Source: Sphingopyxis sp. YR583
GTDB taxonomy: Bacteria > Pseudomonadota > Alphaproteobacteria > Sphingomonadales > Sphingomonadaceae
Length of the DNA stretch: 64,000 bases
NCBI RefSeq assembly: GCF_900108295.1
Contig: NZ_FNWK01000003.1
Location: 310,001 to 374,000, forward strand
Direction: 5' to 3'
A program made the translations under genes and the position numbers. Positions within the stretch are counted from its first letter, which is position 1, and each line of letters begins with the position of its first letter. The notes beneath the pieces were generated by a model. That model made no database searches, was not told the origin of the DNA, and worked only from the letters and a program-made list of their open reading frames with translations. This document shows, one piece after another, positions 20,984 through 61,574 of this stretch.

Positions 20984-22186
20984 ATGACCGACCTCTTCAG
21001 CAAGTTCGACCCGCTGATCCAGCAGCGCGAGGCGCTGCTCGCGACCGGCGTCACCGACCCGTTCAGCCTGGTTATGGAAAGGGTGGTCTCGCCGACCGTC
21101 GCAATCTGCAACGGGCGCGAGACGATCCTGCTCGGCACCTATAATTATATGGGCATGACCTTCGACGAGGATGTCATCGCCGCGGGCAAGGATGCGCTCG
21201 ACAAGTTCGGCAGCGGCACCACCGGCAGCCGCGTGCTCAACGGCACCTATCAGGGGCACAAGGAGTGCGAGGACGCGCTGAAAGAATTTTACGCCATGGA
21301 CCATGCCATGGTGTTCTCGACCGGATATCAGGCGAACCTCGGCATCATTTCGACGATCGCGGGCAAGGGCGACTATGTCATCCTCGATATCGACAGCCAT
21401 GCGTCGATCTATGACGGGTGCAAGATGGGCGACGCCGAAATCGTCGCTTTTCGCCACAATGACGTCGAAGCGCTCGAAAAAAGGCTGAAGCGCCTGCCCC
21501 CCGAAGCGGGCAAGCTCGTCGTGCTCGAAGGCGTCTATTCGATGCTCGGCGATATCGCGCCGCTGAAAGAGATGATCCGCGTCTCGAAGGAAGCTGGCGC
21601 GATGGTGCTGGTCGACGAAGCGCATTCGATGGGTTTCATCGGCGAGCATGGCCGCGGCGTTGCCGAGGCGCAGGGCGTGATCGACGATGTCGACTTCATC
21701 ATCGGCACGTTCAGCAAGAGCGTCGGCACCGTCGGCGGCTTCTGCGTCTCGAACCACCCGAAGTTCGAAATCATGCGGCTCGTCTGCCGCCCCTATGTGT
21801 TCACCGCCTCGCTGCCGCCGAGCGTCGTCGCCACCGCCGCGACGAGCATCCGCAAGCTGATGCACGGATCGAACAAGCGCGCGCATCTGTGGGAAAATTC
21901 GAAGGTGCTGCACAAGGGGCTTCGCGATCTGGGCTTCACGCTCGGTACCGAGGAGCCGCAGTCGGCGATTATCGCGGTGATCATGCCCGACCTCGAAAAG
22001 GGCGCGATGATGTGGGAGGCGCTTCTGGAGGAAGGGCTGTACGTCAATCTCGCACGCCCACCGGCGACCCCCGCGGGCATGACGTTGCTGCGCTGTTCGC
22101 TCTGCGCCGAGCATTCGAGCGAGCAGGTAACCGAGATCCTCGGCCGTTTCGAACGCGCGGGCAAACGAGTGGGCATTATCGGCTGA
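20984..22186 (+). CDS. spt: Serine palmitoyltransferase
   Basis: Committed step of sphingolipid synthesis: PLP-dependent condensation of serine with a C16 acyl thioester to 3-ketodihydrosphingosine. 400 aa alpha-oxoamine synthase with YNYMG, GSGTTGSRVLNGTY, DEAHSMG (Asp211, His214) and the PLP lysine in GTFSKSVGTVGG (Lys245). Close to the soluble Sphingomonas paucimobilis enzyme in length and motifs. Co-transcribed with the ACP gene just upstream. Its presence is the strongest taxonomic marker in the window. A KBL or HemA identity is less likely given the ACP partner. Confidence 0.95.
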   Translation: MTDLFSKFDPLIQQREALLATGVTDPFSLVMERVVSPTVAICNGRETILLGTYNYMGMTFDEDVIAAGKDALDKFGSGTTGSRVLNGTYQGHKECEDALKEFYAMDHAMVFSTGYQANLGIISTIAGKGDYVILDIDSHASIYDGCKMGDAEIVAFRHNDVEALEKRLKRLPPEAGKLVVLEGVYSMLGDIAPLKEMIRVSKEAGAMVLVDEAHSMGFIGEHGRGVAEAQGVIDDVDFIIGTFSKSVGTVGGFCVSNHPKFEIMRLVCRPYVFTASLPPSVVATAATSIRKLMHGSNKRAHLWENSKVLHKGLRDLGFTLGTEEPQSAIIAVIMPDLEKGAMMWEALLEEGLYVNLARPPATPAGMTLLRCSLCAEHSSEQVTEILGRFERAGKRVGIIG

Positions 22187-24270: not shown

Positions 24271-25131
24271 TCAGCGTATCGCGCCGCCCCGGATCAGGCG
24301 GGGCACCAAAGTCAACGCGGCGACGAGCGGCCAGCGACGCTGCCATGGCTTGATCTCGATCTTCGTTCCCGCGTGACGGTTGATCTTCCACGCGAGATAA
24401 TCGATCCCGCCAGCATAGGTCAGGCTGGCCTTGGCAAGCCGCGCGATGCTGAGCGCCTTTCCCTCGAACCGCCGCAGCGCCCAGCCGCCGTTTTGCGCAT
24501 CGGCGGGGATCGCATCGATCGCAGGGCCGCTGAAACGACCATAGCGTTCTGCATCCGCATCGACCACCGATTGCGCACGGCCCGTCCGTTCGGCGCGCAA
24601 TTCGACCGAATAGGTGAGCGAAAAAGCGCGACGCCACCAATCGAGCGGTGCCTCGCCTTTGACCCGGCCGGCGGCGGCAAGCAACGTCGGCGCCGCGCGC
24701 GAAACCGCAGTTATCGCACGGTCGCTCGCCGTGTCATCGACCGCCCAGACCAGCCGCGACGGCTGTGCGAAGCGTGCCCAAACGGAAACATTTCGCGTTT
24801 CGGCGCCGTTCAGCCGGTCGAAGTCGGCTTCGCTGAGCACCGCATATTTGGCGATCAGCCCGCCGTGCTGGAAGGGAAAGACATTGGGCGGAATCAGCCG
24901 GTTCGCAACCGCCATCCAGCGTTTGGGATAAGCGTCGCCATAGTCGGACACGATCAGGTAGAAATCGAGCATCAACCCGTCGAGTTCGGCTTCGCGCAGG
25001 CAGCTGCCGTAGAAAAGAACCGCGCGCGCGCTTCCCGGATATTCGGCCGCAATTGCCTGCGCCATCGCGGTGACGCGCGGATCGACCGGGATCGCGAGTT
25101 CTTCGCGGACGAGTTCAACTAGCGCAGGCAT
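24271..25131 (-). CDS. Nucleotidyltransferase-fold protein of lipid-kinase operon
   Basis: 286 aa without a firm family. Residues about 37-60 (VLFYGSCLREAELDGLMLDFYLIV) have the GS-x-D-x-D pattern of Pol beta-like nucleotidyltransferases. The C-terminal part is basic and helical (KINRHAGTKIEIKPWQRRW). It is the last of three leftward genes: DUF2141 protein, lipid kinase, this protein, with gaps of only 6-7 bases. A similar trio is associated with ceramide phosphoglycerate synthesis in Caulobacter (cpg genes, from memory), so a role in modifying a sphingolipid headgroup is a reasonable guess. Substrate and chemistry are unknown. Confidence 0.6.
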   Translation of the reverse strand: MPALVELVREELAIPVDPRVTAMAQAIAAEYPGSARAVLFYGSCLREAELDGLMLDFYLIVSDYGDAYPKRWMAVANRLIPPNVFPFQHGGLIAKYAVLSEADFDRLNGAETRNVSVWARFAQPSRLVWAVDDTASDRAITAVSRAAPTLLAAAGRVKGEAPLDWWRRAFSLTYSVELRAERTGRAQSVVDADAERYGRFSGPAIDAIPADAQNGGWALRRFEGKALSIARLAKASLTYAGGIDYLAWKINRHAGTKIEIKPWQRRWPLVAALTLVPRLIRGGAIR

Positions 25132-25138
25132 GAAGGGA

Positions 25139-26113
25139 TCAGGCGGCGAGGCGAAGGAAGGGAACCGGCTGCGTCGAGGTCAGGATAATCGGCGCACCAT
25201 TTTTTGCCTGGAAGATTTCGCCGTCGAGAATGACGTTCGAGCGCTCGCCCTCGATGCGGATTTCGTCGCCCTGCTGGAAATGCACGCCGTCGAGCTGCTT
25301 TTGCCCCAACGTCCCGCGCCAGGTCGCACCGAGCATACGGAACAGCGCGCCGACATTGCTGTCGGTCGCGAGCAATTTCATATTGCCGTTCGTGCCATAG
25401 GCTTCGCTGGTGCGAATGCTGAGCAGCAATTTCTCCAGCGTCGTGACGATCAGCAGCGAGAATTTGCCCTTGAATTCGCCCTGACGGATCAGCGAGACGG
25501 TCATCGGTTGGGGCTTCGGCGGCAGACGCCCGCCGCCGATACCGAAAATGATCGCGAACAGCCCGAGGATCGCCGCAAGGAAATGGGACAATCCATTGGG
25601 CAAGCCAAGCGGATAGATGCGATTGCGGCAATAGAGCATCACATCGGCCAGATAGGCGCCGCCAAGGAACATGCCGAGCACCGGCCGCTCTTCGCCGCCG
25701 CTGTCGAGCGCGATCAACTGACGTTCGATCACATGATCCTCAAGCCGGCCGCTTTCGACCAGTTCGACGACACGCTGCAGCGCCTTGATCGGATCCCCCT
25801 CGGCACCGAGGTCGAGCGCGATCAGATTGGTCTTTCCGTTCGGCAGCACCGCGACCGGCGGCGGCGAACCGCCGAAATGGTCGCCCGAATAGATTTCGGT
25901 CAGCGCGGCCTGCACCGTACCGTCGCCGCCATTGATGACGACGACGCGCGGCCCGACCATTGCCATCGTGCGAATGGCCTTTTCGATCTGGTCGACGTCC
26001 TCGACCTCATAATGAAAAATATCGGGGTGCGCCGCGCAATATTCGCGAACCTGCGGCAACAACGAGCGATTGCCCGTCGAGCGTGGATTCGAAAGGAGCG
26101 CGACGCTAGCCAT
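25139..26113 (-). CDS. Lipid kinase of the diacylglycerol/sphingosine kinase family
   Basis: 324 aa. ATP-binding loop VVINGGDGTVQAALTEI in the N-terminal domain, LPNGKTNLIALDL in place of the usual LGTGNDFA loop, and DGE (VILDGEIF) near the C-terminus. It phosphorylates a lipid hydroxyl. Because it sits 3 kb from spt, between a DUF2141 protein and a nucleotidyltransferase-like protein, the substrate may be ceramide rather than diacylglycerol, as for the Caulobacter ceramide kinase CpgB. Hydrophobic stretch around 180-200 (LAAILGLFAIIFGI) may insert in the membrane. Confidence 0.85.
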   Translation of the reverse strand: MASVALLSNPRSTGNRSLLPQVREYCAAHPDIFHYEVEDVDQIEKAIRTMAMVGPRVVVINGGDGTVQAALTEIYSGDHFGGSPPPVAVLPNGKTNLIALDLGAEGDPIKALQRVVELVESGRLEDHVIERQLIALDSGGEERPVLGMFLGGAYLADVMLYCRNRIYPLGLPNGLSHFLAAILGLFAIIFGIGGGRLPPKPQPMTVSLIRQGEFKGKFSLLIVTTLEKLLLSIRTSEAYGTNGNMKLLATDSNVGALFRMLGATWRGTLGQKQLDGVHFQQGDEIRIEGERSNVILDGEIFQAKNGAPIILTSTQPVPFLRLAA

Positions 26114-26726: not shown

Positions 26727-27947
26727 TTGAATAAGCTGCCTGCCATCGACCGCTATATCGCGCGGCTCATTTTTTTCCCGATGCTCGGCACGCTCGTCCT
26801 GTCGGCGATGCTGCTCGTGCTCGAAAAAATGCTCCGACTGTTCGATTTCGTCGCCACCGAGGGCGGCCCGGTCAGCGTCGTGTGGCGGATGCTGGCGAAC
26901 CTGATTCCAGAATATCTTTCGCTTGGCATTCCGATCGGGCTGATGCTCGGGATTCTCCTTGCTTTCCGGCGGCTTGCGACATCGAGCGAGCTCGATGTAT
27001 TGAAGGGCGTGGGGATGAGTTTCGGGCGGCTGATGCGCGTTCCCTTCGCCTATGCAATCGCCCTCGCCGCGCTCAATCTTGCGATCGTCGGCTTTATCCA
27101 GCCCGTCGCGCGCTATGCCTATGAAGGGTTGCAGTTCGAACTTCGTTCGGGCGCGCTCGGCGCGTCGATCAAGGTCGGCGAATTCACCAAATTGGGCGAC
27201 CGCATGACGCTACGGATCGAGGAAAGCTACAATGACGGGCGGTCCTTGCGCGGCATTTTCGTGCGCGGCGAGCAGAAAGATGGCCAGCGCGTCTCCGCGA
27301 CCGCGGCGCGCGGGCAGTTCCTGGCCACCGATGATCCGAACACGATCATCCTCCGCCTGTCGCAGGGCGTGCTGATTCACGAATCGCCCAAATTTGCCGT
27401 GCCGCGCGTGCTGACCTTCGACAACCACGACCTGCCGATCCCGCTGCCCAAGATCGAGGCGTTCCGCCTGCGCGGCGGCGCCGACCGCGAAATGACGATC
27501 CCCGAACTGTTCGTCGCGGGCAAGGACAAGAGCCAGTCGGTGCAGACAAGGCTCGAATCGCGTGCCAATTTCCACTTCCGCATCGTCGAAGTGATGTCGA
27601 TGTTCCTGATCCCGCTGATCGCGATCGCGCTCGCCATCCCGCCCAAGAGATCGACCTCGTCGCTCGGCGTCTTCCTGTCGATCGTGCTGTTGGTGACCCA
27701 GCACAAGATCAACCAATATGCCGAAGACATGGGCGCGCGCGGGGTGGTCGACCCGCTGATCGCGCTGTGGGTGCCCTATCTGCTGTTCGCGGCGCTCGCG
27801 ATCTGGATGTATTATGTCGTCGCGCATGTCCCCGGCGGCCAGCCGATCGGCGCGCTCGAACGCGTCGCGGCGAAGGCAGGGCAGAAGATTCGCGCGATGC
27901 TCACAATGTTCCAGCGCAAACAACGGCCGGCGGAGAGTGTGAACTAA
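26727..27947 (+). CDS. lptF: LptF family lipid-export permease
   Basis: 406 aa YjgP/YjgQ permease: N-terminal membrane helices (about 12-35, 60-85, 100-125), a periplasmic beta-jellyroll (about 140-265: LRSGALGASIKVGEFTKLGDRM), then helices at about 285-305, 315-330 and 345-365. In LPS producers LptF with LptG and the ATPase LptB extracts LPS for the Lpt bridge. Start is TTG at 26727; no in-frame ATG is placed better. It is directly followed by lptG with no spacer. The setting, among sphingolipid genes in a lineage known for lacking LPS, makes glycosphingolipid a possible cargo. Confidence 0.9.
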   Translation: MNKLPAIDRYIARLIFFPMLGTLVLSAMLLVLEKMLRLFDFVATEGGPVSVVWRMLANLIPEYLSLGIPIGLMLGILLAFRRLATSSELDVLKGVGMSFGRLMRVPFAYAIALAALNLAIVGFIQPVARYAYEGLQFELRSGALGASIKVGEFTKLGDRMTLRIEESYNDGRSLRGIFVRGEQKDGQRVSATAARGQFLATDDPNTIILRLSQGVLIHESPKFAVPRVLTFDNHDLPIPLPKIEAFRLRGGADREMTIPELFVAGKDKSQSVQTRLESRANFHFRIVEVMSMFLIPLIAIALAIPPKRSTSSLGVFLSIVLLVTQHKINQYAEDMGARGVVDPLIALWVPYLLFAALAIWMYYVVAHVPGGQPIGALERVAAKAGQKIRAMLTMFQRKQRPAESVN

Positions 27948-29048
27948 ATGCATCAGCTCCACTTTTTTCCGTCGCGCACCATGGCGCTCTACGTCGGCCG
28001 CCTCTTTCTCATCCGCTCCTTCTCGATCCTTTTCGCGCTGGTTCTGATCCTGCAGACGCTCGACCTGCTCGGCGAGAGCGGCAAGATACTTGCCGTCGCG
28101 GGCAATAGCGATTCGGACGTGTGGCGCTATGTCGGCATGCGGATGCCGCAGATCATCGAGACTTTTCTGCCCTTTTCGGTCCTGCTCGGCACGATCCTGA
28201 CGATGGTCACGCTCAATCAGAACAGCGAGGTGATCGCGATGAAGGCGTCGGGCATGTCGGCGCATCAGGTTCTCGCGCCCCTGTTTCTTGCCGCTCTGCT
28301 CGTTGCCGGGATCAGCTTTGCCTTCAACGAGCGCATCGTCACGCGGTCGACCGCGGCGCTCAGCGCCTGGCAAAAGGTCGAGTATAAAAAGGTACCGAAG
28401 GACAGCGGCATACGCACGAATATCTGGGTTCGCGACGGCGACGACCTGATCAATGCGACGACCGTCGACACCAGCGGCCCGACGATCGTCCTTGGCTATG
28501 TGACGATCTATGAGCGCACCGGCGGCGTGCTGTCGTCGATGCTGTCTGCCGACAGCGCACGCGCCGTGGCCGGCGGCGGCTGGGAATTGACCAACGCGCG
28601 GCGCTTTATCCGCCGGTCGGGCACGCTCGAACAATTGGGGACGATCGTCGCGGCCAAGAATGTGCGCCCCGACCAGTTCACACTGGCGCAGGTCGATGGC
28701 GACGAATTGCCTTTCATGAAGCTCAAGTCGGCGATTGCCGATCTCGAGGCCGCGGGCCGCCCTGTCGATGCGTTGAAAGGCGTGCTCTGGCACAAGATCT
28801 CTGGACCGTTGTCCGCGATATTGATGCCGCTGCTCGGCGCCGTCGCGGCGTTCGGCCTTGCCCGGTCGGGCAAGTTGTTCATCCGCGCCATCATCGGCAT
28901 GGGACTTGGCTTCGCCTATTTCGTCGCAGACAATTTCGCGCTCGCGATGGGCGATCTGGGCGCCTATTCGCCGTTCCTCGCGGCATGGGGCCCTTTTATC
29001 CTCTTCGCGCTGATCGGCGAGATGATCCTGATCCGCACCGAAGAATAG
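27948..29048 (+). CDS. lptG: LptG family lipid-export permease
   Basis: 366 aa partner of LptF: LFLIRSFSILFALVLILQTLDLL first helix, FLPFSVLLGTILTMVTLNQNSEVIAMKASGMS (the coupling-helix region EVIAMKASG typical of LptG), periplasmic jellyroll about 125-270, and three C-terminal helices (LSAILMPLLGAVAAFGLARSG). ATG follows the lptF TAA directly. Slightly shorter at the N-terminus than average if translation starts at ATG 27981. The LptB ATPase is not in the window. Confidence 0.9.
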   Translation: MHQLHFFPSRTMALYVGRLFLIRSFSILFALVLILQTLDLLGESGKILAVAGNSDSDVWRYVGMRMPQIIETFLPFSVLLGTILTMVTLNQNSEVIAMKASGMSAHQVLAPLFLAALLVAGISFAFNERIVTRSTAALSAWQKVEYKKVPKDSGIRTNIWVRDGDDLINATTVDTSGPTIVLGYVTIYERTGGVLSSMLSADSARAVAGGGWELTNARRFIRRSGTLEQLGTIVAAKNVRPDQFTLAQVDGDELPFMKLKSAIADLEAAGRPVDALKGVLWHKISGPLSAILMPLLGAVAAFGLARSGKLFIRAIIGMGLGFAYFVADNFALAMGDLGAYSPFLAAWGPFILFALIGEMILIRTEE

Positions 29049-51233: not shown

Positions 51234-52778
51234 ATGAGCGAAGACGTCGCCCAACCCGCCGTTACCAGCCGCAGCGTCGCGCGCGGGCTCGGCACGACCG
51301 TGCTGGCCCGCCTCGGCGCAGTGGTCGAGATCGTCGCGCAGCCGCTCTATGTGCTCATGTTCGGCCTCGCCGGCTACGGCCTCTATGCCGTGCTGTGGGC
51401 CGCGGTGAACCTGCTCGAGAATATCTTCGACCTCGGCATGACGAGTGCAATGCAACGCACAGTGCCGCAATCGGCGAGCAAGGCCGAGGCGGCGGCGGCG
51501 CTGCGTACCGCGATGATCTTCGGCGTCGGACCATGTATAATCGTCGCGGCACTGGTCGCGTTCTTTGCCGCCGACCTCGGGCCGCTGCTCAACGTGGCGG
51601 AGCGGGACCGCGAACTCGTCACCCCCGCGATCCGCATCTTCGTCTGGGCACTTCCGCTATGGGCCTTTGTCGAGATCGCGACCTCGGCGCTGCGCGCGCG
51701 CATGGTGTTCGGCGCCGAAATCCGACTGCGGATCGTCTGGGAACAGATGATGCGGCTGGTGTTTGCAGGGCTATTTTTCGTCGGCGGACTTGGCCTCAAG
51801 GGCCTGTTCATCGCGCATCTTTGTTCGCTCGCGATCACCGCTGGGCTCAGCGTCCGCCTGCTCGCGCGTCACTATAGTTTCGCCGACCTGTGGCGCGGCC
51901 CGTGGGTCACCGAGACGACGCGCAACACCTTCTGGGCCGGACTTTCGATCCTGCCGTCGAACATCATCACACGGCTGTTCGGCGATGCCCCGGCGCTGAT
52001 CCTGAACATGCTGCTTCCCGGCGCGGCGGGCGCAGCGGCTGCAGGCCTGTTCACGATCGCGCGCAAGCTGTCGAGCGTCGTCCAGCTGGTGCGCATTGCC
52101 TTTACTTATGTCATGGCGCCGCTCGCCGCGAGCGCCGAACGCGAAGACCGACGGCAGGTCGCCGACATCTACGCCTATGCGACCCGACTCATTTCGGCGA
52201 TCGCGCTTCCGCTGGCAGCCGTTCTTGCCGCGGGTAGCGCCTCGCTGCTCGGTTTGTTCGGACATGGCGCACAGGCGGCACAGGCGGCGCTGGTCATCCT
52301 GCTATTCGCGCGGGCGGCCGAAGCGGTGCTCGGCATTTCGGCGCCGGTGCTTCAGGTCGTCGCGGCGTTCCGCCAGCAGCTCACCGCCAGCATCTTCGGC
52401 GTCGCAGTCGCGATCGGTTCGGGGTGGCTGATCGTCGGCCATCTCGACCCACTGACCGGCGTGACGCTGGCAACCGCGATCGGGCTCGTCGTCATGGCCG
52501 CCATCCCGACGCTCCAGCTCGCGCTCGTCGAAAAGCTGCACCCTTTCGACGCGCAGTTTCCAGCGGTCGCGCTGCGCGGCGTCGCAATCACGCTTGTCGC
52601 GGGAACGATAGCGGTGCTCGTCGACCTTCTGCCCGACTGGCTTTCCTTGCCGCTGCTCCTCTTGACCGCGGTGACTTCCATCTGGCTGTCGCTCCGCTTT
52701 GCCCTGCCGCTCGCCGATCGCCTGTCGCTGGGCAAAACCGGCCGCAAACTCCGGCTGTTCGAACACGAAAACATATGA
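51234..52778 (+). CDS. Oligosaccharide/lipid-linked flippase (MOP superfamily, Wzx-like)
   Basis: 514 aa with about fourteen predicted membrane helices; N-terminal SVARGLGTTVLARLGAVVEIVAQPLYVLMFG and GYGLYAVLWAAVNLLENIFDLG are typical of polysaccharide-biosynthesis flippases. It likely moves a lipid-linked glycan or glycolipid across the inner membrane. First gene of a five-gene run in which each start overlaps the previous stop, including HAD phosphatase, TagB-like transferase, CDP-alcohol phosphotransferase and HIT protein. Confidence 0.88.
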   Translation: MSEDVAQPAVTSRSVARGLGTTVLARLGAVVEIVAQPLYVLMFGLAGYGLYAVLWAAVNLLENIFDLGMTSAMQRTVPQSASKAEAAAALRTAMIFGVGPCIIVAALVAFFAADLGPLLNVAERDRELVTPAIRIFVWALPLWAFVEIATSALRARMVFGAEIRLRIVWEQMMRLVFAGLFFVGGLGLKGLFIAHLCSLAITAGLSVRLLARHYSFADLWRGPWVTETTRNTFWAGLSILPSNIITRLFGDAPALILNMLLPGAAGAAAAGLFTIARKLSSVVQLVRIAFTYVMAPLAASAEREDRRQVADIYAYATRLISAIALPLAAVLAAGSASLLGLFGHGAQAAQAALVILLFARAAEAVLGISAPVLQVVAAFRQQLTASIFGVAVAIGSGWLIVGHLDPLTGVTLATAIGLVVMAAIPTLQLALVEKLHPFDAQFPAVALRGVAITLVAGTIAVLVDLLPDWLSLPLLLLTAVTSIWLSLRFALPLADRLSLGKTGRKLRLFEHENI

Positions 52779-53482
52779 CCGATCCGCACCCCATCCGTAT
52801 CGCGATCTATGATCTCGACCGCACCGTGCTGCGCACCCCGACCTTCACGCTGTTCCTGCTGTGGGCGGCATGGCGCGAGGCGCCCTGGCGTCTGTTATTG
52901 CTCCCCGCTCTCGCAGCGCTGATGATCGGCTACGCCCTACGACTTTACGGGCGCGACCGCTTCAAACCCACCGCGATTCGCCTGATGCTGGGCGCGCGGA
53001 TCGCGCCCGCACGCGCCGAAAATCTTGCGGCCGCCTTTGCCGCATGGCGTGTGCCGCATGACGTTCCGCCGGGCGCTGCCGCCTGCATCGCGCGCGACCG
53101 GGCGGAAGGATACCGGCTGTTGATGGCGACCGCCGCGCCGGAATTTTATGCGGGGGCAATCGCCGATGCGCTGGGCTTCGATGCCATTGTCGCTTCGCGC
53201 CACCTCCGCGATGGCATGGGCAACTGGATCCCCCTGCTCGACGGGCCGAACTGCTATGGCGCCGAGAAGGCGCGGCGCGTGAGCGAATGGCTCGCTGCCA
53301 ACGCAAAGGACGAGGCCACACATATCCGCGCCTATTCGGACCATATCAGCGACGCGCCGACCTTCGCGCTCGCCAGCGAGGCCTGGCTGGTCGGGCGCGG
53401 CGATAAATATGTCCGGCTGGCGGCAAAACATGGCTGGCGCGCCGCCGATTTCGAGGATGCCGCCGTGGTCGAGGCCGGTTGA
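52775..53482 (+). CDS. HAD family phosphatase (HAD-IB type)
   Basis: 235 aa. Motif I AIYDLDRTVLR (Asp13, Asp15), motif II TAA, motif III/IV AYSDHISDAPTF: the SerB/PGP-phosphatase-like HAD-IB class. A hydrophobic insert (FLLWAAWREAPWRLLLLPALAALMIGYAL, residues about 28-56, described by its ends) suggests membrane association, as in phosphatidylglycerophosphatase C. It probably dephosphorylates a lipid- or polyol-phosphate intermediate of this cluster. ATG overlaps the flippase stop (ATGA). Confidence 0.85.
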   Translation: MTDPHPIRIAIYDLDRTVLRTPTFTLFLLWAAWREAPWRLLLLPALAALMIGYALRLYGRDRFKPTAIRLMLGARIAPARAENLAAAFAAWRVPHDVPPGAAACIARDRAEGYRLLMATAAPEFYAGAIADALGFDAIVASRHLRDGMGNWIPLLDGPNCYGAEKARRVSEWLAANAKDEATHIRAYSDHISDAPTFALASEAWLVGRGDKYVRLAAKHGWRAADFEDAAVVEAG

Positions 53483-54621
53483 TGCGTATCCTGTTCCTGT
53501 TTGTCGGTGAACCGCACCATGTGTTCCACGCGCTACCCATTGCCGCCGAGATGGCGGCAACAGGGCAAAAGGTCGAAGTCGCGGTCGCGAGCGCGGACCA
53601 TCTGCGCGTGGCCGAACAGGTCGTACAAGCCTATCCGGGATTTGCGCCCCGCATCACGCTGCTTGGGCAAAAGGGTTTCGCCCGCTGGCTTCGCGACAAG
53701 GGGCTGTTCCGCAATCCACGCCTGCCGATCCTGATCGACGCGCTGCCCTATCTGCGTCAGTTCGACGCGATCGTCGTGCCCGAACGGACGACCACAGCGA
53801 TCCGCCATTTCCTGCCGCGGCGGACGCGATTGATCTTTACGCCGCACGGCGCGGGCGACCGCGCGATCATGCTCGACCCACGCGACCGGCATTTCGATTT
53901 CGTGCTCGTCGCAGGCGAGAAGAGCGAGCAGCGCCTGCTCGATGCCGGGACGATCCGGCAAGGGCGTTATGCCGTCAACGGCTATGTGAAGCTCGACCTG
54001 ATGCCCCGGCTTCAGGCGGCGCGCGCGTCGCTGTTCGCGAACGGCCGGCCGACAGTCCTTTACGCCCCCCATTTCAAACGCGATCTGTCGTCGTGGGATC
54101 GGTTCGGACGCGATATCATCGACTGGTTCGCCGGGCAGGACCGCTATAATCTGGTCGTCGCGCCGCATGTTCGCCTGTTCGCCGAGGCAAGCGATGCCGA
54201 GCGCGCGGCGGTGGCGGAACTCGCGGTACCCGGCAAGATATTGATCGATCTCGCGTCCGACCGCCTGTTCGACATGAGCTATACGAGCGGTGCCGACATC
54301 TATCTTGGCGATGTGAGCAGTCAGGTTTACGAGTTTCTCGCGACACCACGCCCGTGCCTGTTCCTCAACGCTCATGGCGTCGACTGGCAGGGCGATCCCG
54401 ACTATCTGTTCTGGACGCTGGGCGATGTGGTGAACGATCTCGCAGACCTGCCCGATGCACTGGAGCAGGCTCCGGCCCGACATCCGCTATATGCCGCCGC
54501 CCAGAGCGAAAGACTGGCGGAATCGATCGGCGGTAACCCGGCGGGCGCAGCGCGGCGCGGCGCCGACGCCATCCTCGGCTTCCTTGCAATGGACGCGGGG
54601 CAGGATAAGAGCGAGGCATGA
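53482..54621 (+). CDS. CDP-glycerol glycerophosphotransferase-like protein (TagB/TarB-type)
   Basis: 379 aa GT-B-like protein. RLIFTPHGAGD and LYAPHFKRDLSSW contain the two conserved His of the glycerophosphotransferase family, and YLGDVSSQVYEFLATPRPCLF is the hallmark donor-site segment (SDxSSxxxE). In Gram-positives these enzymes move glycerol-phosphate from CDP-glycerol to teichoic acid acceptors; in Gram-negatives they appear in capsule and glycan loci. ATG 53482 overlaps the HAD stop by one base. Donor and acceptor here are unknown, but nucleotidyl donors could come from the genes at 56128-57683. Confidence 0.85.
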   Translation: MRILFLFVGEPHHVFHALPIAAEMAATGQKVEVAVASADHLRVAEQVVQAYPGFAPRITLLGQKGFARWLRDKGLFRNPRLPILIDALPYLRQFDAIVVPERTTTAIRHFLPRRTRLIFTPHGAGDRAIMLDPRDRHFDFVLVAGEKSEQRLLDAGTIRQGRYAVNGYVKLDLMPRLQAARASLFANGRPTVLYAPHFKRDLSSWDRFGRDIIDWFAGQDRYNLVVAPHVRLFAEASDAERAAVAELAVPGKILIDLASDRLFDMSYTSGADIYLGDVSSQVYEFLATPRPCLFLNAHGVDWQGDPDYLFWTLGDVVNDLADLPDALEQAPARHPLYAAAQSERLAESIGGNPAGAARRGADAILGFLAMDAGQDKSEA

Positions 54622-55715
54622 CCGACGCGAAGTCCCTACCCGCCCTGACGCCGATCGGCGAAAATTCGACATTGCTGTGGGGCATGACCAATGCCGAACG
54701 GCTGCGGCGGCTGGCGCGCGCGGAGGGGTTGCCCGAAGCCTCTTCCACCGCTCAGCTTTACGTCAATCTCGACTATGTGTTCGACCCGGTATGGCTGCGC
54801 CATATCGTGACGCTGCCCGGTACGGTAGTGATGGACGGCGACGCGTTGGTGATGGCACATCTGACCGGGGGCATGACCCCTGCGGATATTGCGCAGCACC
54901 GCGGCGGGCTCACGATCATCGATTATCGCGACAATCCGCAAATTTATAACCGCCAGCTGCGCAAGCTCGACTGCCCGTTCATTCAGCGACTGACCCCGGA
55001 AACGCGGCGCGAGATCGAACGGAAGAGCTATTTCGGCGCCTATAAGGGCGTCACCGATGCGCTGACCAAATATCTGTGGCCCGAACTCGCGCTGTGGCTG
55101 ACGCGCGGTGCCGCGAGCATCGGCATGACACCGAACTTGGTCACCGCGATCGGCGCGACACTCTGTGTCTACGCGACCTACCTCTTTGCCTACGGCCAAT
55201 ATTGGGAGGGGATGCTCGCGGGCTTCATCTTCATGGTGCTCGATACCGTCGACGGAAAGCTCGCGCGCTGCACGATCACCTCGTCGAAATGGGGCAATGT
55301 CGCCGACCATGGCGTCGATTTGGTCCACCCGCCCTTCTGGTGGTATTTCTGGGGCGTCGGGCTGGGTGCCTGGGGTCTCGCGCTGTCGAACCAGACCTTC
55401 CTGCTGGTGATGATCGCGGTCGTGGCGGGCTACGTCCTCCAGCGCGTGATCGAGGGGCTGTTCATCAAGGACTTCGGCATGGACATCCATGTCTGGCAGA
55501 AGTTCGACAGCGATTTCCGCCTCGTTACGGCACGCCGCAACCCGAATTTCGCGATCCTGTTCTTTGCGACGCTCGCGGGGCGCCCCGACATCGGCCTGAT
55601 CGCGGTCGCCTGGTGGACGGTCATATCGCTCGTCGTCCATGCGGTGCGGCTGGTGCAGGCCTATGCCGTGAAGCGCTCGGGCCCTCCGATCGTCAGCTGG
55701 ATGGAAGAAGCATGA
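54618..55715 (+). CDS. CDP-alcohol phosphotransferase with extra N-terminal domain
   Basis: 365 aa. The full catalytic motif D-x2-DG-x2-AR-x8-G-x3-D-x3-D is at 209-234 (Asp209, Asp212, Gly213, Arg217, Gly226, Asp230, Asp234), followed by membrane helices. Residues 1-150 form an extra cytosolic domain (TNAERLRRLARAEGLPEAS..., YVNLDYVFDPVWL) reminiscent of the tail of bifunctional inositol-phosphate cytidylyltransferase/di-myo-inositol-phosphate synthases, without a complete nucleotide site. It should join a CDP-activated alcohol to a hydroxyl acceptor and release CMP. ATGA overlap with the upstream gene. Confidence 0.88.
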   Translation: MTDAKSLPALTPIGENSTLLWGMTNAERLRRLARAEGLPEASSTAQLYVNLDYVFDPVWLRHIVTLPGTVVMDGDALVMAHLTGGMTPADIAQHRGGLTIIDYRDNPQIYNRQLRKLDCPFIQRLTPETRREIERKSYFGAYKGVTDALTKYLWPELALWLTRGAASIGMTPNLVTAIGATLCVYATYLFAYGQYWEGMLAGFIFMVLDTVDGKLARCTITSSKWGNVADHGVDLVHPPFWWYFWGVGLGAWGLALSNQTFLLVMIAVVAGYVLQRVIEGLFIKDFGMDIHVWQKFDSDFRLVTARRNPNFAILFFATLAGRPDIGLIAVAWWTVISLVVHAVRLVQAYAVKRSGPPIVSWMEEA

Positions 55716-56140
55716 ACGAGACCATCGACAAATTCGGCCACCCCGCGACGCTGATCGCCGAATATGATCATTGGGTGGTGCTGCTGCGCCCCGCGCAGCC
55801 AACGCTCGGCGCGCTGGTGCTCGCAGCGAAATCGGACGCGACGGCATTCGGCGACCTGCCGGCCGAAGCGCATGCCGAGCTCAAGATCGCAACAGCCGCA
55901 ATCGAGGCCGGGCTCGGCGAAGCCGTCGGCTGTGCGAAGATCAATTATCTGATGCTGATGATGGTCGACCCGCACGTCCATTTCCACGTCCTGCCGCGCT
56001 ACGATGGCGAACGCTCGGGCGCGGGGCTGACGGTCGCCGACGCCGGCTGGCCGGCGCAGCCCGAACTCGGGCAGGCGGTGAAGCTGGATGAGGCACAGAC
56101 AGCCGCGCTTGTCGGCTGGCTCAAACCCTATTTCGCGTAG
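55712..56140 (+). CDS. HIT family hydrolase/transferase
   Basis: 142 aa histidine-triad protein with DPHVHFHVLPRYDG (HxHxH). HIT enzymes cleave nucleoside phosphoramidates or dinucleotides such as ADP-X and CDP-X. As last gene of the flippase-HAD-TagB-CDP-alcohol run (ATGA overlap) it may recycle a nucleotidylated intermediate. Its 3' end overlaps the convergent nucleotidyltransferase by 13 bases. Confidence 0.88.
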   Translation: MNETIDKFGHPATLIAEYDHWVVLLRPAQPTLGALVLAAKSDATAFGDLPAEAHAELKIATAAIEAGLGEAVGCAKINYLMLMMVDPHVHFHVLPRYDGERSGAGLTVADAGWPAQPELGQAVKLDEAQTAALVGWLKPYFA

Positions 56141-56892
56141 CGGCCTTCTGCGGCCCATTTGGCGGTAAGCGCATCGGCTGCTTCGACGTCCTGCGGGAAG
56201 TCGACTTCCTGCCATTCGAGCCCCTCGATCGACACTGTGCCGACGCGGTTGCCCTTCGCAATGATGTCGATCGCGCGCAGATACCAGCGCTCGACGCCGT
56301 CGGGGGTGCGCATCATCTGGTCGACCTGGTTGCGGAAGATCGACGGGCCGTCGCCGACGAACGCCAGCATCCCGATCGACTCGGCATTGGTGTCGGGGGG
56401 TAGCAGCCGCTTGCCGATATGGTGCAGGCGACCCTCGGCGTCGCGGTTCACCTTCATGTCGTCGTCGTCATAGTCGGTCTTGACGTCGACCGTGACGTTG
56501 ATTGGCTCGTTCGCGCCTGCGATCAGCTTTGCGACGATCTCGTCCGAAATGATGGTGTCGCCGTTGAGGATGATGAAATCGCGGTCCATCTCCTCGCGCG
56601 CGATCCAGCAGGTGCCGAGATTGTCGGCGACCTGAAAGAAGGGGTTGAACAGGGTACGGATGCGCGCGCCGGTGTCGCGGTAGAGCTGCAGCGCATGATC
56701 CTCGACGCGTTCGGTGCGAAAACCGGTGACGACGACGATGTCCTTGATGCCGTTCGCAACGAGCGCCGCGACCTGCCAGCTGATGAGGCTGCGGCCGTTG
56801 AATTCGATCAGGCATTTGGGGATGTCGCGGGTCAGCGGCAGCAGGCGCGAGCCCTGCCCGGCCGACAGGATGATGGCTTTGTCGATGCTCAT
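56128..56892 (-). CDS. LicC-like sugar/alcohol-phosphate nucleotidyltransferase
   Basis: 254 aa. ILSAGQGSRLLPLT followed by PKCLIEFNGRSL is the NTP-binding signature, ILNGDTIIS the metal site, and DVKTDYDDDDMKV is acidic. Closest in type to phosphocholine or inositol-phosphate cytidylyltransferases. It would make the CDP-activated alcohol used by the facing CDP-alcohol phosphotransferase. ATG overlaps the stop of the upstream MobA-like gene (TCAT at 56889-56892). Confidence 0.87.
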   Translation of the reverse strand: MSIDKAIILSAGQGSRLLPLTRDIPKCLIEFNGRSLISWQVAALVANGIKDIVVVTGFRTERVEDHALQLYRDTGARIRTLFNPFFQVADNLGTCWIAREEMDRDFIILNGDTIISDEIVAKLIAGANEPINVTVDVKTDYDDDDMKVNRDAEGRLHHIGKRLLPPDTNAESIGMLAFVGDGPSIFRNQVDQMMRTPDGVERWYLRAIDIIAKGNRVGTVSIEGLEWQEVDFPQDVEAADALTAKWAAEGRYAK

Positions 56893-57683
56893 AGGGGCTG
56901 CCCTATAGCGCCTTGCCGCCGCGCAGCAAATATCGCTTCGATGAGGTCGATGTCGGCGGGCTTGTCGGCGTCGATGCAGGCCTCGGGCTCGGACATCGGA
57001 ACGACCTTCGCTTTGAGCCCGAAACGCAGGCCCGCGCGTGCGACGCCCTGCTGGATCGTGAAGAGACGGAACAGCGCCCCGATCAGCAGCCACGGTCCGA
57101 AGGCGGCGACAATCTTCAGCCCTTTCTTGCGATCGCGTTCGATGCGGCCCCAGAAATCGAGCAAGGGCAATACGCGGCGCCCGCGCAAGCGGAACATGTT
57201 CGCCCCCGACCACCAACCACCGCGGAATTTCAGCCAGGTCCGCTTCGACTGCGGATAACGCGCGAACAGCACCTCTCGCTCGACCATCGCGACCGCGACG
57301 TCGCTGTCCTCGGCCCCACCCACAAATTCGGCAATCATCGTCGGGGTGAGCAGCACATTGTCGGCGGTGGTAACGAGCAAAGGATCGTCACCCGGCGGTA
57401 ACGCGGCGGCAAGCGAAGTGCTGATCCCCTGCCCGGAATCCACGAAATGCAGGTCGGTGAGGCCAGCCAGCCCCGGTTCCGCCGCAAGGTCGGCACTGTT
57501 CTGCGCGAGAATCGTGATCGCACCGACCTGGGGCGAAGCGCGGAGCGCCCGCACGACATGGAGGAGCATCGCCTGCCCCGCGATCGGCAGCAGCGCCTTG
57601 GTCGACACCCCGCTACCGGTCAGCAATGGATCGGGACCGGGCCGGCTGCCGGCCAGCACGATCGCCGGAATCGGCCCGCTCAT
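56889..57683 (-). CDS. MobA-like NTP transferase domain protein
   Basis: 264 aa with AIVLAGSRPGPDPL, VSTKALLPIAGQAML, TTADNVLLTP: a nucleotidyltransferase-fold enzyme of the MobA/IspD branch, with an unusual basic C-terminal half (RTWLKFRGGWWSGANMF, RIERDRKKGLKIVAAFGPW) that may sit on membrane. A second nucleotidyltransferase beside the LicC-like one, in the same overlapping run (ATGA at both ends). Its activated alcohol is unknown; a molybdenum-cofactor role is unlikely given the neighbours and C-terminus. Confidence 0.82.
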   Translation of the reverse strand: MSGPIPAIVLAGSRPGPDPLLTGSGVSTKALLPIAGQAMLLHVVRALRASPQVGAITILAQNSADLAAEPGLAGLTDLHFVDSGQGISTSLAAALPPGDDPLLVTTADNVLLTPTMIAEFVGGAEDSDVAVAMVEREVLFARYPQSKRTWLKFRGGWWSGANMFRLRGRRVLPLLDFWGRIERDRKKGLKIVAAFGPWLLIGALFRLFTIQQGVARAGLRFGLKAKVVPMSEPEACIDADKPADIDLIEAIFAARRQGAIGQPL

Positions 57684-58636
57684 TGTGTGGCCTCGGCGGC
57701 CGGCGCGATGCGCCGCGCCGTAACGCCGCGCAGGAAATCGGTCGCTTCTTCGAGCACCGGCCCCTTGTTCTGGAATGGCGCGGCGAGCGCCATCACGATG
57801 CCGGTATGCCCCATGCCCGGATAGATGCGGAGCGTCACCGCACCGCCCACCTTCTCGATCGCCGCGGCGAGATTCTGGCTGTTGCGTGGACGCACCGTGT
57901 CATCCTCGTCGCCGGTTGCGAGCCAGAGCGGCGGCGCATCGCCGCGCGCGAAATTGATCGGCTGCGTCTTTTCGATCGGCCTGACCTTGCCCATCGCCCT
58001 GTCCCCTCGCCCGCCCTTTTCGAGCGGCAAGAAGTCATAGGGCCCGGCGAGCCCCGCGACGCCGCGGACGATCGACGGATCGCTCTTCGCCGCGCGCAGC
58101 CACTGCGGGTCGAGCGCGATCATCGCAGCATTATACGCGCCCGCCGAATGGCCCATCAGCGCGATCCGGTCAGGATCGCCGCCCAGCTTGCCGATATGTT
58201 CATGCGTCCACGCGACCGCTGCGGCGCTGTCCTCGATGAAATCGGGCCAATGCGCCTTGGGCACCAGGCGATAGTCGGGGATCACCACGACAAAGCCCTG
58301 CCGCGCGAGCGCACGTCCGGCAAAGCCATAACTATCGCGCTCGCCGCTGTCCCAGCCGCCGCCATAGAAAAAGACGACAACGGGCAGTTGGTCGTCCGCC
58401 TTGGCATTTTCGGGGACCCAGATGTCGAGCGACTGGCGCGGTCCGCGGCCATAGGGTTGATCGGCGAGCAGAAGCCGCGCGCCATCGCCCTGCCCGAGCA
58501 GCCGATCGGCCATGTTGAGCGATTTCGCGCCGCCCGCGACGATCATCTTGGCGCCGCCGCCGAACAGCAGCACGAGCAGAAGCACCACGAAAAGGAATTT
58601 GATCAACCGTCGTCCTTTGGAAACCGGGCCCGCCAT
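57680..58636 (-). CDS. Membrane-anchored alpha/beta hydrolase
   Basis: 318 aa. N-terminal membrane anchor (about 12-30), then an esterase/lipase fold of the HSL/BD-FAE type: VVFFYGGGWDSG oxyanion loop, MGHSAGAYN nucleophile elbow, GDEDDTVRP acid, and GMGHTG His. First gene of the leftward run with the two nucleotidyltransferases. It could deacylate a lipid intermediate in the periplasm; this is inference. Confidence 0.85.
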   Translation of the reverse strand: MAGPVSKGRRLIKFLFVVLLLVLLFGGGAKMIVAGGAKSLNMADRLLGQGDGARLLLADQPYGRGPRQSLDIWVPENAKADDQLPVVVFFYGGGWDSGERDSYGFAGRALARQGFVVVIPDYRLVPKAHWPDFIEDSAAAVAWTHEHIGKLGGDPDRIALMGHSAGAYNAAMIALDPQWLRAAKSDPSIVRGVAGLAGPYDFLPLEKGGRGDRAMGKVRPIEKTQPINFARGDAPPLWLATGDEDDTVRPRNSQNLAAAIEKVGGAVTLRIYPGMGHTGIVMALAAPFQNKGPVLEEATDFLRGVTARRIAPAAEATQ

Positions 58637-58723
58637 CTCTGCGCCCTACAGGGCGGCGGTGCGGCGAACAAGACGGCTACACACAAGTATCGCGACCTTT
58701 TTGGCGTTCGCGCGTAGGACAGG

Positions 58724-59557
58724 ATGATGACCAGCCCCTTCTCCCGCCCCGCCCTGATCTGCAACAGCCAGAGCGGCAGTCACGACGACGCCGTCCTCGC
58801 CGAGATTGCCGAAACATGCCGCTCCGCGAGCACACCGCTCGTTGCCGTATTTTCGCTGCCCGACGACGACATTCCGGGCGCCGCAGACCTCGCCGCGCGG
58901 GATATCGACCTGCTGCTCGTCTGGACCGGCGACGGGACGATCAATGCCGCCGCAACCCAGGCGGCTGGCTGGGATGGCGCAATCCTTCCGCTGCCCGGCG
59001 GCACGCTCAACCTGCTATCGAAGGCGTTGCACGGCGACCGGCCGGCGCCCGAAATCCTGACCGATGTATTGGAAGGCAAGGGTCAGCGCCGGCCCATCCC
59101 GACGATCCAGTCCGATGGCGGCAATGCCTTCATCACCATCGTCGCCGGCCCGGCGACCCGCTGGGCCGAGGTCCGCGAAACGATGCGGCAGGACGGTTTG
59201 ATCGAGGCAAGCCGGGCAGCGCCCGATGCGCTCGACACGATGATGAACGCGCCGGGCGTTGCGGTTGCCGGACATGACGGCGCCTATCCCGCGGTCATAT
59301 TGACCCCGACGTCCGGAGGCATCCGTGCCGACGGCATCCTGACCGAAGGGACGGCCGACGTACTCCGTCACGGCCTTGCTTGGCTCGGCGGCGATTTTCG
59401 CGACGGGCCTAGCGAAGAGATAGCGAATGGGGGGACGATCATTCTCGAAAGCGAGGCCCCAATCAGCCTCGAATATGACGGCGAGCTGGGCGAAACGGCC
59501 TCGCCCGCGCGCTTCGGTCTCGGTACCAGCGCGGTGGATTTCGTCGCGACGGCATGA
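58724..59557 (+). CDS. Diacylglycerol-kinase-family protein
   Basis: 277 aa. CNSQSG near the N-terminus, LLVWTGDGTINAAATQA with TGDGT instead of GGDGT, LPLPGGTLNLLSKAL instead of LGTGNDFA, and EYDGELGE at the C-terminus. All loops of the lipid kinase fold are there but two are non-standard, so substrate specificity may differ. It starts after AGGACAGG at ATG 58724 (or 58727) and overlaps the metallophosphoesterase start (ATGA), which suggests opposed kinase/phosphatase or nucleotide-release functions. Confidence 0.82.
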   Translation: MMTSPFSRPALICNSQSGSHDDAVLAEIAETCRSASTPLVAVFSLPDDDIPGAADLAARDIDLLLVWTGDGTINAAATQAAGWDGAILPLPGGTLNLLSKALHGDRPAPEILTDVLEGKGQRRPIPTIQSDGGNAFITIVAGPATRWAEVRETMRQDGLIEASRAAPDALDTMMNAPGVAVAGHDGAYPAVILTPTSGGIRADGILTEGTADVLRHGLAWLGGDFRDGPSEEIANGGTIILESEAPISLEYDGELGETASPARFGLGTSAVDFVATA

Positions 59558-60402
59558 CGCGCCTCTTCCACATCAGCGACCTGCATTTTGGGCTCGAGAA
59601 CCGCGCTGCACTCGGCTGGTTCGAAGATTGCGTGCGCCGCGAACGCCCCGATGCGGTCCTGATAACCGGTGACCTCACCATGCGCGCGCGCAGCCGCGAA
59701 TTTGCCGCAGCGTGCGACTGGATCGGTGCGCTGGACGTCAAGGTGACGGTCGAGGTCGGCAACCATGATCTGCCCTATTTCAATCCCGTCGAGCGTTTTT
59801 TCTTTCCCTATCGCCGCATCCGCGGGATCGAGCGGCTGGTCGAGCGTGAACTCGATCTGGCGGGAGTCGCGATCGTCCCGCTCAAGACCACCGCGCGCGC
59901 GCAATGGCGGCTCGACTGGTCGAAGGGCTGGGTAACCAGGCGGGCTCTGGAAAAGACGCTTACGGCGATCGACGCGCTGCCGCGCGGCACGACGGTGCTG
60001 GTCACCGCGCATCACCCGCTGGTCGAAGCGGGCACGAAAGGCCGCGCACTGACCCGCGGTGGCGAACGCGCGCTGGCCGCGCTGGCAGAGCGCGGCGTCG
60101 CTGCTGTGCTCTCCGGCCATGTCCACGATGCTTTCGACCTGACACAGGAAACAGCGGCCGGTCCCATCCGCATGATCGGCGCAGGCACGCTGTCGCAGCG
60201 CATCCGTTCGACCCCGCCCAGCTTCAACGACCTGATGGTACAAGGCACGGCGATCGACGTTCGCGTGCGTAACCTCGAGAAAATCTCGACACCCGACATG
60301 CAGATCGACGATGTCCCGCCCAATGCGTTGCCGCCGCGCGAACCCGGCGAACCGGTCGCCCCCGTCGCCGCGGTGCCGCCCGTCGATCCACCGGTGCATT
60401 GA
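59554..60402 (+). CDS. Calcineurin-like metallophosphoesterase
   Basis: 282 aa. ISDLHFG, ITGDLT, VGNHDLPY, TAHHPLVEAG and LSGHVHDAFD are the five metal-binding blocks in order. Cytoplasmic; possible cyclic nucleotide, nucleotide-lipid (LpxH-like) or lipid-phosphate substrate. The C-terminus is Pro-rich. Coupled by ATGA overlap to the lipid kinase-like gene. Confidence 0.9.
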   Translation: MTRLFHISDLHFGLENRAALGWFEDCVRRERPDAVLITGDLTMRARSREFAAACDWIGALDVKVTVEVGNHDLPYFNPVERFFFPYRRIRGIERLVERELDLAGVAIVPLKTTARAQWRLDWSKGWVTRRALEKTLTAIDALPRGTTVLVTAHHPLVEAGTKGRALTRGGERALAALAERGVAAVLSGHVHDAFDLTQETAAGPIRMIGAGTLSQRIRSTPPSFNDLMVQGTAIDVRVRNLEKISTPDMQIDDVPPNALPPREPGEPVAPVAAVPPVDPPVH

Positions 60403-60467: not shown

Positions 60468-61574
60468 ATGCTGACACGAGGCGACGATTTTCCGTTGCAC
60501 CAGACTAGCGAACCGATCGCGTTCGCCGGGACGGACCGCAATTTTTACGACCGCTATTTTTTCAACGGCTATTCGCCCGACGGCTCGGTCTTTTTCGCCG
60601 CGGCGATGGGCTTTTACCCCCAGCTCGGCATCGTCGACGCCAGCTTCTGCGTCATACTGAACGGCGTCCAGCATAATCTCCGCGCCAGCCGCCGGTCGGG
60701 AGGCGAAAGACTGAACCTGTCGGTCGGGCCGATCATCCTCGACATCGACATACCGCTACAGGTGCTGACGCTCCACATCTCGCCGAACGACGGCCCGCTC
60801 GAGGGCGAACTGCGCTTCACGAACCGCCATTTCCCGATCGAGGAACCGCGATTCATCCGCCGCAACGGCACGCGGCTGTTCATGGATTATACGCGCATAA
60901 CGCAGAACGGCCGCTGGTCGGGCTGGCTCTCGGTCGATGGCGAGCGTGTCGAGCTTGGCGACGGATGGAGCGGTACGCGCGACCGGAGCTGGGGGGTACG
61001 CCCGGTCGGCGCGAGCGAACCGCAGCCGCCACCCGAGGGCAATTTCAACCAGTTCTTCTGGCTGTGGACGCCCTGCAATTTCGAGGATCGCTCGCTTTTC
61101 TTCCATAGCAACGACGATGGCGCCGGAGCCCCGTGGAACCGCCGCGCCGTAATCGTCGACGACAGCTGGAACACCGAGGACGGAACCGAACGGCATTTCG
61201 CCGATGCGGCCTTCGACATCCAGTGGACGCCGGGATCGCGGCGCATCGCGCGAATGGCGGCCGATCTTGGTCACGGCCACCGGCTGACGCTCTCGCCAAC
61301 CGGGCCGGTCTTTGCAATGAGCGGCCTCGGTTACACACATCCGGTCTGGGGACATGGCCTCGACCATGGCGCCGAACTCGCGGTCGCGCACGACCAGCTT
61401 AGCGAAGCCGAGCGCGCCTGGGGGAATCCGCTCGCGATGCACATTCAGGCGCTCGTCACAGCCGAACTGACCGACGGCAGCACAACGCATCGCGGCGTAG
61501 GCGTCCTCGAACAATTGTTCGTCGGTCCGCACGCTCCGACCGGCCTTGCCGGCCTGATGGATCCGGCGCCTTGA
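60468..61574 (+). CDS. CrtC/AttH-like lipocalin-fold protein, function unknown
   Basis: 368 aa. Two-lobed beta-rich sequence with GTRDRSWGVRPVG, a segment typical of the hydroxyneurosporene synthase/AttH (DUF7064/7065-like) group that includes carotenoid 1,2-hydratase. No signal peptide. Starts FPLHQTSEPIAFAG. It overlaps a phosphotransferase gene by 4 bases (TTGA), a pairing that suggests action on a hydrophobic alcohol or xenobiotic. The fold call is moderate; activity is open. Confidence 0.68.
   Translation: MLTRGDDFPLHQTSEPIAFAGTDRNFYDRYFFNGYSPDGSVFFAAAMGFYPQLGIVDASFCVILNGVQHNLRASRRSGGERLNLSVGPIILDIDIPLQVLTLHISPNDGPLEGELRFTNRHFPIEEPRFIRRNGTRLFMDYTRITQNGRWSGWLSVDGERVELGDGWSGTRDRSWGVRPVGASEPQPPPEGNFNQFFWLWTPCNFEDRSLFFHSNDDGAGAPWNRRAVIVDDSWNTEDGTERHFADAAFDIQWTPGSRRIARMAADLGHGHRLTLSPTGPVFAMSGLGYTHPVWGHGLDHGAELAVAHDQLSEAERAWGNPLAMHIQALVTAELTDGSTTHRGVGVLEQLFVGPHAPTGLAGLMDPAP

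Follow-up and report, generated by a model that had tools for sequence, protein, structure and literature searches.

A Sphingopyxis gene cluster very probably encoding the headgroup half of a ceramide (di)phosphoglycerate pathway

Ceramide diphosphoglycerate (CPG2) is a lipid of Caulobacter crescentus, where its genes are CpgA-CpgD and CC_1152-CC_1168 (PMC11324152, PMC12275187), and it helps Caulobacter to survive when lipopolysaccharide is missing (PMC12275187). Caulobacter CpgD is the orthologue for which synthesis of CDP-glycerate from CTP and 2-phosphoglycerate has been shown (PMC12275187, PMC13228409). CpgA and CC_1153 are required for CPG2 and the phosphoesterase CC_1158 is partially required (PMC11324152, PMC12275187). 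Orthologues of the pathway, in scattered pieces and without one for CC_1158, are already in print for Sphingomonas wittichii (PMC11324152). Here we describe eight genes at 51234-58636 of a 64,000-nucleotide stretch from Sphingopyxis sp. YR583 (contig NZ_FNWK01000003.1, positions 310,001 to 374,000; the whole stretch is called the window below), which very probably supply the headgroup half of ceramide (di)phosphoglycerate synthesis in this Sphingopyxis-like bacterium. The top-scoring protein hits that carry a genus name belong to Sphingopyxis, at 86-89% identity. From this we infer that the strain makes CPG2.

As a reference we used the cpgD locus of Caulobacter vibrioides DSM 9893, which was found via a published primer, together with its 33-kb neighbourhood. 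The genes come in the order LptC2, TagF-like, flippase-like, AasR, CerR, spt (serine palmitoyltransferase), CpgC, CpgB, CpgA, metallophosphoesterase, HIT, LptF2, and further on MobA-like and CpgD. This order fits the published description; AcpR, LptG2 and CerS were not singled out, and the numbers CC_1167, CC_1157 and CC_1158 were assigned by gene order.

All eight genes which the first-pass annotation had named were found in place with their families, in two converging operons, five genes on the plus strand and three on the minus strand (Table 1). The annotation had called these operons facing and fully overlapping. They do converge, and their genes are joined by overlaps of 4 bp, six in all with the start codons chosen here (four on the plus and two on the minus strand); the operons themselves share only ~13 bp (56128-56140). 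The cluster is flanked by sdhB and zapE. Neither a glycosyltransferase family nor a TagD-type cytidylyltransferase was matched among the 10 proteins scanned with Pfam (51234-60402), and on this ground a Gram-positive-type capsule or teichoic acid locus was rejected; the annotation had likewise stated that no classical glycosyltransferase was present and that this was not a standard capsule locus. No NCBIfam name was obtained above cut-off for the CDP-alcohol, cytidylyltransferase, MobA-like or TagF-like proteins.

The LicC-like protein is the orthologue of CpgD. The residues in contact with the ligands were taken from the CpgD structure paper (PMC13228409), K26 and D112 from PMC12275187. The window protein keeps G12, R16, K26, N90, T93, N110, G111, D112, M147, K161, S170 and W201, and has an alanine for T88, which in CpgD makes a backbone contact. 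N110, D112, M147, K161 and S170 are kept in all 14 further relatives that were aligned; T93 is replaced by serine in 13 of these, and W201 by tyrosine in three and by phenylalanine in four. Since the CTP and glycerate contacts of CpgD are conserved, 2-phosphoglycerate is the likeliest candidate for the activated alcohol phosphate, and the activation of such a phosphate by CTP, which had been proposed from the gene content, finds its probable enzyme here. It should be noted that a search of the sequences in the PDB with the LicC-like protein (E 0.001) returned 43 sequences, none of them bearing the name CpgD.

The CDP-alcohol phosphotransferase is the CpgA orthologue, which agrees with the proposed step of transfer to a surface lipid, probably an anionic lipid of the envelope. 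The full CDP-alcohol motif is present at residue 209, and the structure model has a predicted local distance difference test (pLDDT) score of 91.8. The closest solved fold is AF2299, with a template modelling (TM) score by query of 0.66-0.70; this fold matches over nearly the full length, and the extra N-terminal domain is therefore of a known type. The likeness to AF2299 and PIP synthase folds, together with scores of the CDP-alcohol domain on the NCBIfam PIP synthase models, all below cut-off, could be taken to mean that the gene serves ordinary phosphatidylinositol or phosphatidylglycerol synthesis. However, the genome has three more CDP-alcohol phosphotransferase genes, two of them with far better Pfam scores, the LicC-like protein has the contacts of CpgD, and relatives of the cluster place CpgA together with spt and ceramide-decorating genes. 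On the strength of the better-scoring paralogues and the sub-threshold PIP synthase scores this explanation was rejected, and we consider it extremely improbable. As a separate observation, two genomes of the survey (G037 and G263; loci L041 and L043 with L040 and L042) have three CDP-alcohol phosphotransferase paralogues within ~22 kb around the spt cluster, and two paralogues in each genome have DSVDGK in place of the DTVDGK motif.

A link to sphingolipid synthesis had also been suggested, and this is borne out by the spt gene inside the window and by the orthology to the CPG2 genes. One gene separates spt from the CpgC orthologue, the CpgB-like kinase and the LptF/LptG pair. The kinase and the CpgC orthologue form a pair, as they do in Caulobacter, the first LptF/LptG protein shows 28% identity to the LptF2-like gene of Caulobacter over 325 aa, and an AasR-like gene (47%) lies on another contig (G000:C1:2315688). 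The cluster had been presented as a possible undescribed pathway; with the orthology of its CpgD and CpgA to the Caulobacter CPG2 genes and with the published S. wittichii orthologues (PMC11324152) this description has to be given up.

Conservation was followed at two levels. Among 289 genomes of the class, a strong match to CpgA (E <1e-60) was present in 19 apart from the window's own, and the neighbourhoods were read in 16 of these (G080, G195 and G076 were left out). CpgB-like and/or CpgC-like genes share the stretch with CpgA in 13 of the 16, in 12 cases within ~1 kb and in one at ~7 kb; in a fourteenth stretch LptF/LptG stand next to CpgA. Ten of the 16 stretches include spt. The sphingomonad G381 has CpgA, CpgB, CpgC and the MobA-like gene contiguous (L099, 7782-11758).

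The family survey covered 119 genomes with a cut at E 1e-10 (E 1e-20 for LicC). At this cut CpgA was present in 42 genomes; nine rows of 57-72 bits were dropped as paralogues, by which G294, G320, G328, G385, G389 and G401 count as lacking CpgA, whereas G361, which scored much lower than the other carriers (153 bits, 35% identity), was kept. For the MobA-like gene an even cut of 117 bits was used; an earlier, uneven cut gave 35 of the 36 CpgA carriers, and a looser one 91 of the 119 genomes. Also omitted were a second, weak HAD row and the second piece of a LicC that was split in two. CpgA is found in 36 genomes, and CpgD in exactly those 36 and in none of the 83 others, the two genes lying within 3 kb of each other in 26 of the 36. 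Three sampled genera have one member with and one without CpgA (G296/G387, G321/G402 and G325/G406), and CpgD and HIT follow CpgA each time. The spt gene is present in 117 of the 119 genomes and in 35 of the 36 carriers. Its presence thus does not discriminate the CpgA-carrying genomes, and the survey of co-occurrence with spt which the first-pass annotation recommended is of no help as a discriminator. The CDP-glycerate branch is thus far less common in the family than spt, with 36 genomes against 117.

The excerpted literature on CPG2 and CpgD assigns no role to CC_1167 or CC_1157, and both were called probably unrelated (PMC11324152). The distribution of the HIT gene, the counterpart of CC_1157, is at variance with this. 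It occurs in 32 of the 36 genomes with CpgA and in none of the 83 without, and so was never met without CpgA and CpgD. In the window it is joined to CpgA by an overlap of 4 bp, and LicC and HIT are within 3 kb of each other in 29 of the 32 genomes. Operon and phylogenetic profile both speak for grouping the HIT gene with CpgA and CpgD. The joint absence of CC_1159 and CC_1157 from Zymomonas mobilis (PMC11324152) is in line with this profile.

The TagF-like gene, joined to CpgA by a 4-bp overlap on its other side, is argued more weakly. The protein stays under the Pfam cut-off for PF04464 (13.8 against 22.1 bits, E 0.028); ten of 16 relatives match this family at E 0.1 or better, the best at 6.8e-8. 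Structural alignment to TagF/TarL (3l7k, 8va1) gives a fold of the GT-B type at 12-16% identity, UDP-GlcNAc 2-epimerases fit equally, and Foldseek and VIA did not separate these from TagF. In an alignment with the TagF-like Cps3D the GY and D-x-S-S stretches correspond, and an HG stretch conserved in the TagF-like proteins also resembles TagF. The gene is found in 23 of the 36 genomes with CpgA and in 27 of the 83 without. The four CpgA-carrying genomes without HIT (G318, G332, G356 and G400) have a LicC that diverges from the window's (33-37% identity), with N90 changed to S and W201 to F. Each time it lies next to a TagF-like gene, with gaps of 9-335 bp; among the 32 canonical genomes so close a pair occurs in two, and any TagF-like gene in 19. 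At least for the variant, this connects the TagF-like enzyme with a CDP-activated donor. Operon and profile suggest, less firmly than for HIT, that the gene belongs to headgroup synthesis. For CC_1167 the Caulobacter authors, who call it probably unrelated, give cofitness values of 0.57 with spt and 0.54 with cpgA (PMC11324152). What is new here is that the HIT and TagF-like genes point to conserved helper candidates for CPG2 synthesis. Several steps of this synthesis are without an assigned enzyme, and the layout names CC_1167 and CC_1157 as candidates.

A teichoic-acid-like polymer, for which the TagF-like gene was the reason, is possible. In this alternative the TagF-like enzyme polymerizes CDP-glycerate onto ceramide phosphoglycerate so that the chains exceed two units, with CPG2 serving only as the primer. 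We think it unlikely, because 13 of the 36 genomes with CpgA are without the gene while 27 without CpgA have it, because the TagF-like gene lies within 3 kb of CpgA in just six of the 23 genomes with both, and because 2-epimerases match the fold equally well. Furthermore, in the 27 genomes which have the TagF-like gene and lack CpgA it is near a MobA-like gene in 16 and near a HAD gene in 12, which leaves room for a donor other than CDP-glycerate. The more specific proposal, that the TagF-like protein is a CDP-glycerate-dependent transferase building poly(phosphoglycerate) on ceramide phosphoglycerate with HIT as a dedicated CDP-glycerate hydrolase, has in our judgement a slightly smaller chance still; if true, Gram-negative bacteria would have a sphingolipid-based analogue of teichoic acid. 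Independently of this, a group-1 glycosyltransferase (Pfam) adjoins the TagF-like gene in a genome without CpgA (L091, 9838-10923), and in another such genome (L101, 7488-8582) the gene adjoining the TagF-like gene has a start merely similar in look to that of L091.

The grouping of TagF-like with MobA-like and HAD genes in genomes without CpgA suggests that the cluster in the window may unite two sub-sets. Taken further, a separate headgroup pathway of MobA-like, flippase, TagF-like and HAD proteins would have merged with a CpgA-CpgD-HIT unit, the two having different products. Two genomes without CpgA (G336 and G300) do keep these four genes grouped beside sdhB and zapE. Their flippases, however, resemble that of Caulobacter (26-31%) and not the window's, the relatives of which (47-85%) are in the read stretches of G325, G395, G339 and G331. 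Moreover, the MobA-like CC_1153 is itself required for CPG2 in Caulobacter, and the MobA-like gene, at 117 bits or more, is in 34 of the 36 genomes with CpgA against 28 of the 83 without. Two merged pathways are therefore conceivable but in our opinion rather doubtful. HAD relatives are in 28 of the 36 against 43 of the 83 genomes, within 3 kb of CpgA in eight of the 28 with both; the window's HAD protein is above cut-off for HAD-IB in NCBIfam TIGR01488 and below it in TIGR01490. A search of the Caulobacter flippase-like protein against Pfam at E 0.01 gave no match. The alpha/beta hydrolase has a relative (71%) only in the same-genus locus L102 among the 20 family stretches read.

Read as the headgroup half of CPG2 synthesis, the cluster would work as follows. 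The lipid base would be made by spt and the other ceramide genes, and the CpgB and CpgC relatives 25 kb away would add the first phosphoglycerate unit. CpgD, to judge from its conserved contacts, would make CDP-glycerate from CTP and 2-phosphoglycerate, and CpgA, according to the published proposal, would transfer phosphoglycerate from it to ceramide phosphoglycerate with release of CMP. The MobA-like protein would act in CPG2 formation by analogy with CC_1153. The TagF-like protein would probably use CDP-glycerate or the MobA-like product as donor, the HIT protein would most likely hydrolyse or recycle a CDP- or CMP-containing compound, the HAD phosphatase could trim a terminal phosphate, and the flippase could carry the finished lipid outward to the second LptF/LptG set.

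Several points weigh against this picture. The CpgB-like kinase is a mere 27% identical to CpgB, and blastp gave no match between the window flippase and the Caulobacter flippase-like gene. The TagF-like and HAD genes are, by the counts given above, loosely linked to CpgA. Two class loci have neither spt, CpgB, CpgC nor LptFG, one of them (L051) with LicC, HAD, HIT and TagF-like genes and the other (L053) without the cluster's other genes as well. The Fisher tests on the family profiles take no account of kinship. Finally, the Caulobacter authors report no high cofitness values for CC_1157, and three beta/gamma-proteobacteria expected to form CPG2 are without CC_1167 and CC_1166 (PMC11324152).

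Table 1. Genes of the cluster and ceramide-side genes in the window
Feature	Position	Strand	Similarity or family match
Serine palmitoyltransferase (spt)	20984..22186	+	52% to Caulobacter spt; Aminotran_1_2
CpgC orthologue	24271..25131	-	39% over 292 aa to Caulobacter CpgC; no Pfam family
CpgB-like lipid kinase, candidate ceramide kinase	25139..26113	-	27% over 313 aa to CpgB, E 2.4e-18; DAGK_cat
LptF/LptG pair, candidates for LptF2/LptG2	26727..29048	+	Pfam LptF_LptG E 1.1e-64, 1.2e-77
Flippase, polysaccharide-export superfamily (Polysacc_synt / Polysacc_synt_3)	51234..52778	+	Pfam E 6.9e-12
HAD-IB family phosphatase	52775..53482	+	Pfam HAD E 1.1e-29; NCBIfam TIGR01488
TagF-like (Glyphos_transf-related) transferase, CC_1167 orthologue by gene order	53479..54621	+	42% to Caulobacter
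CpgA orthologue, CDP-OH_P_transf with AF2299-type N-terminal domain	54618..55715	+	41% to Caulobacter CpgA
HIT-family protein, CC_1157 orthologue by gene order	55712..56140	+	56% over 124 aa
CpgD orthologue, NTP_transferase (LicC-like), CTP:phosphoglycerate cytidylyltransferase	56128..56892	-	50% to CpgD
MobA/CofC-like nucleotidyltransferase (NTP_transf_3), CC_1153 orthologue	56889..57683	-	37% over 250 aa
Alpha/beta hydrolase	57680..58636	-	BD-FAE E 2.4e-31

Some neighbouring genes may be mentioned. Beyond the cluster, the plus strand carries at 58724-60402 a further lipid kinase (DAGK_cat) together with a metallophosphoesterase; the latter (59554-60402) shows 27% identity over 243 aa (E 1.3e-8) to the phosphoesterase of Caulobacter which is CC_1158 by gene order, and a relative of this further kinase adjoins the MobA-like gene in G364 (L098). 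Further downstream an EcKL/APH-type kinase (61571-62614, plus strand) adjoins an unassigned protein of 368 aa (60468-61574). A PycTM protein (Pycsar effector domain, 99.7 bits) is encoded just upstream of spt (20003-20575, minus strand).

Compared with described systems, the CpgA orthologue has the fold of the AF2299-type CDP-alcohol phosphotransferases (4o6m) including the extra N-terminal domain, at an identity of only ~15%. The TagF-like protein shares with the wall teichoic acid polymerases TagF/TarL the type of fold and, via Cps3D, the GY and D-x-S-S stretches, but is unlike them in its low identity, and UDP-GlcNAc 2-epimerases suit that fold no less. The likeness to CpgD (PMC13228409) is much closer, half of the residues being identical and the contact side chains that were checked being kept. 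The nearest system as a whole is the Caulobacter CPG2 pathway, with which the window has in common orthologues of spt, CpgA, CpgC, CpgD, CC_1153, CC_1157 and CC_1167, a CpgB-like kinase and an LptF/LptG pair. It differs in that its genes are split over two places 22-30 kb apart with AasR on another contig, that its flippase is no detectable blastp homologue of the Caulobacter one, and that the TagF-like, CpgA and HIT genes stand in one operon to which a HAD gene has been added.

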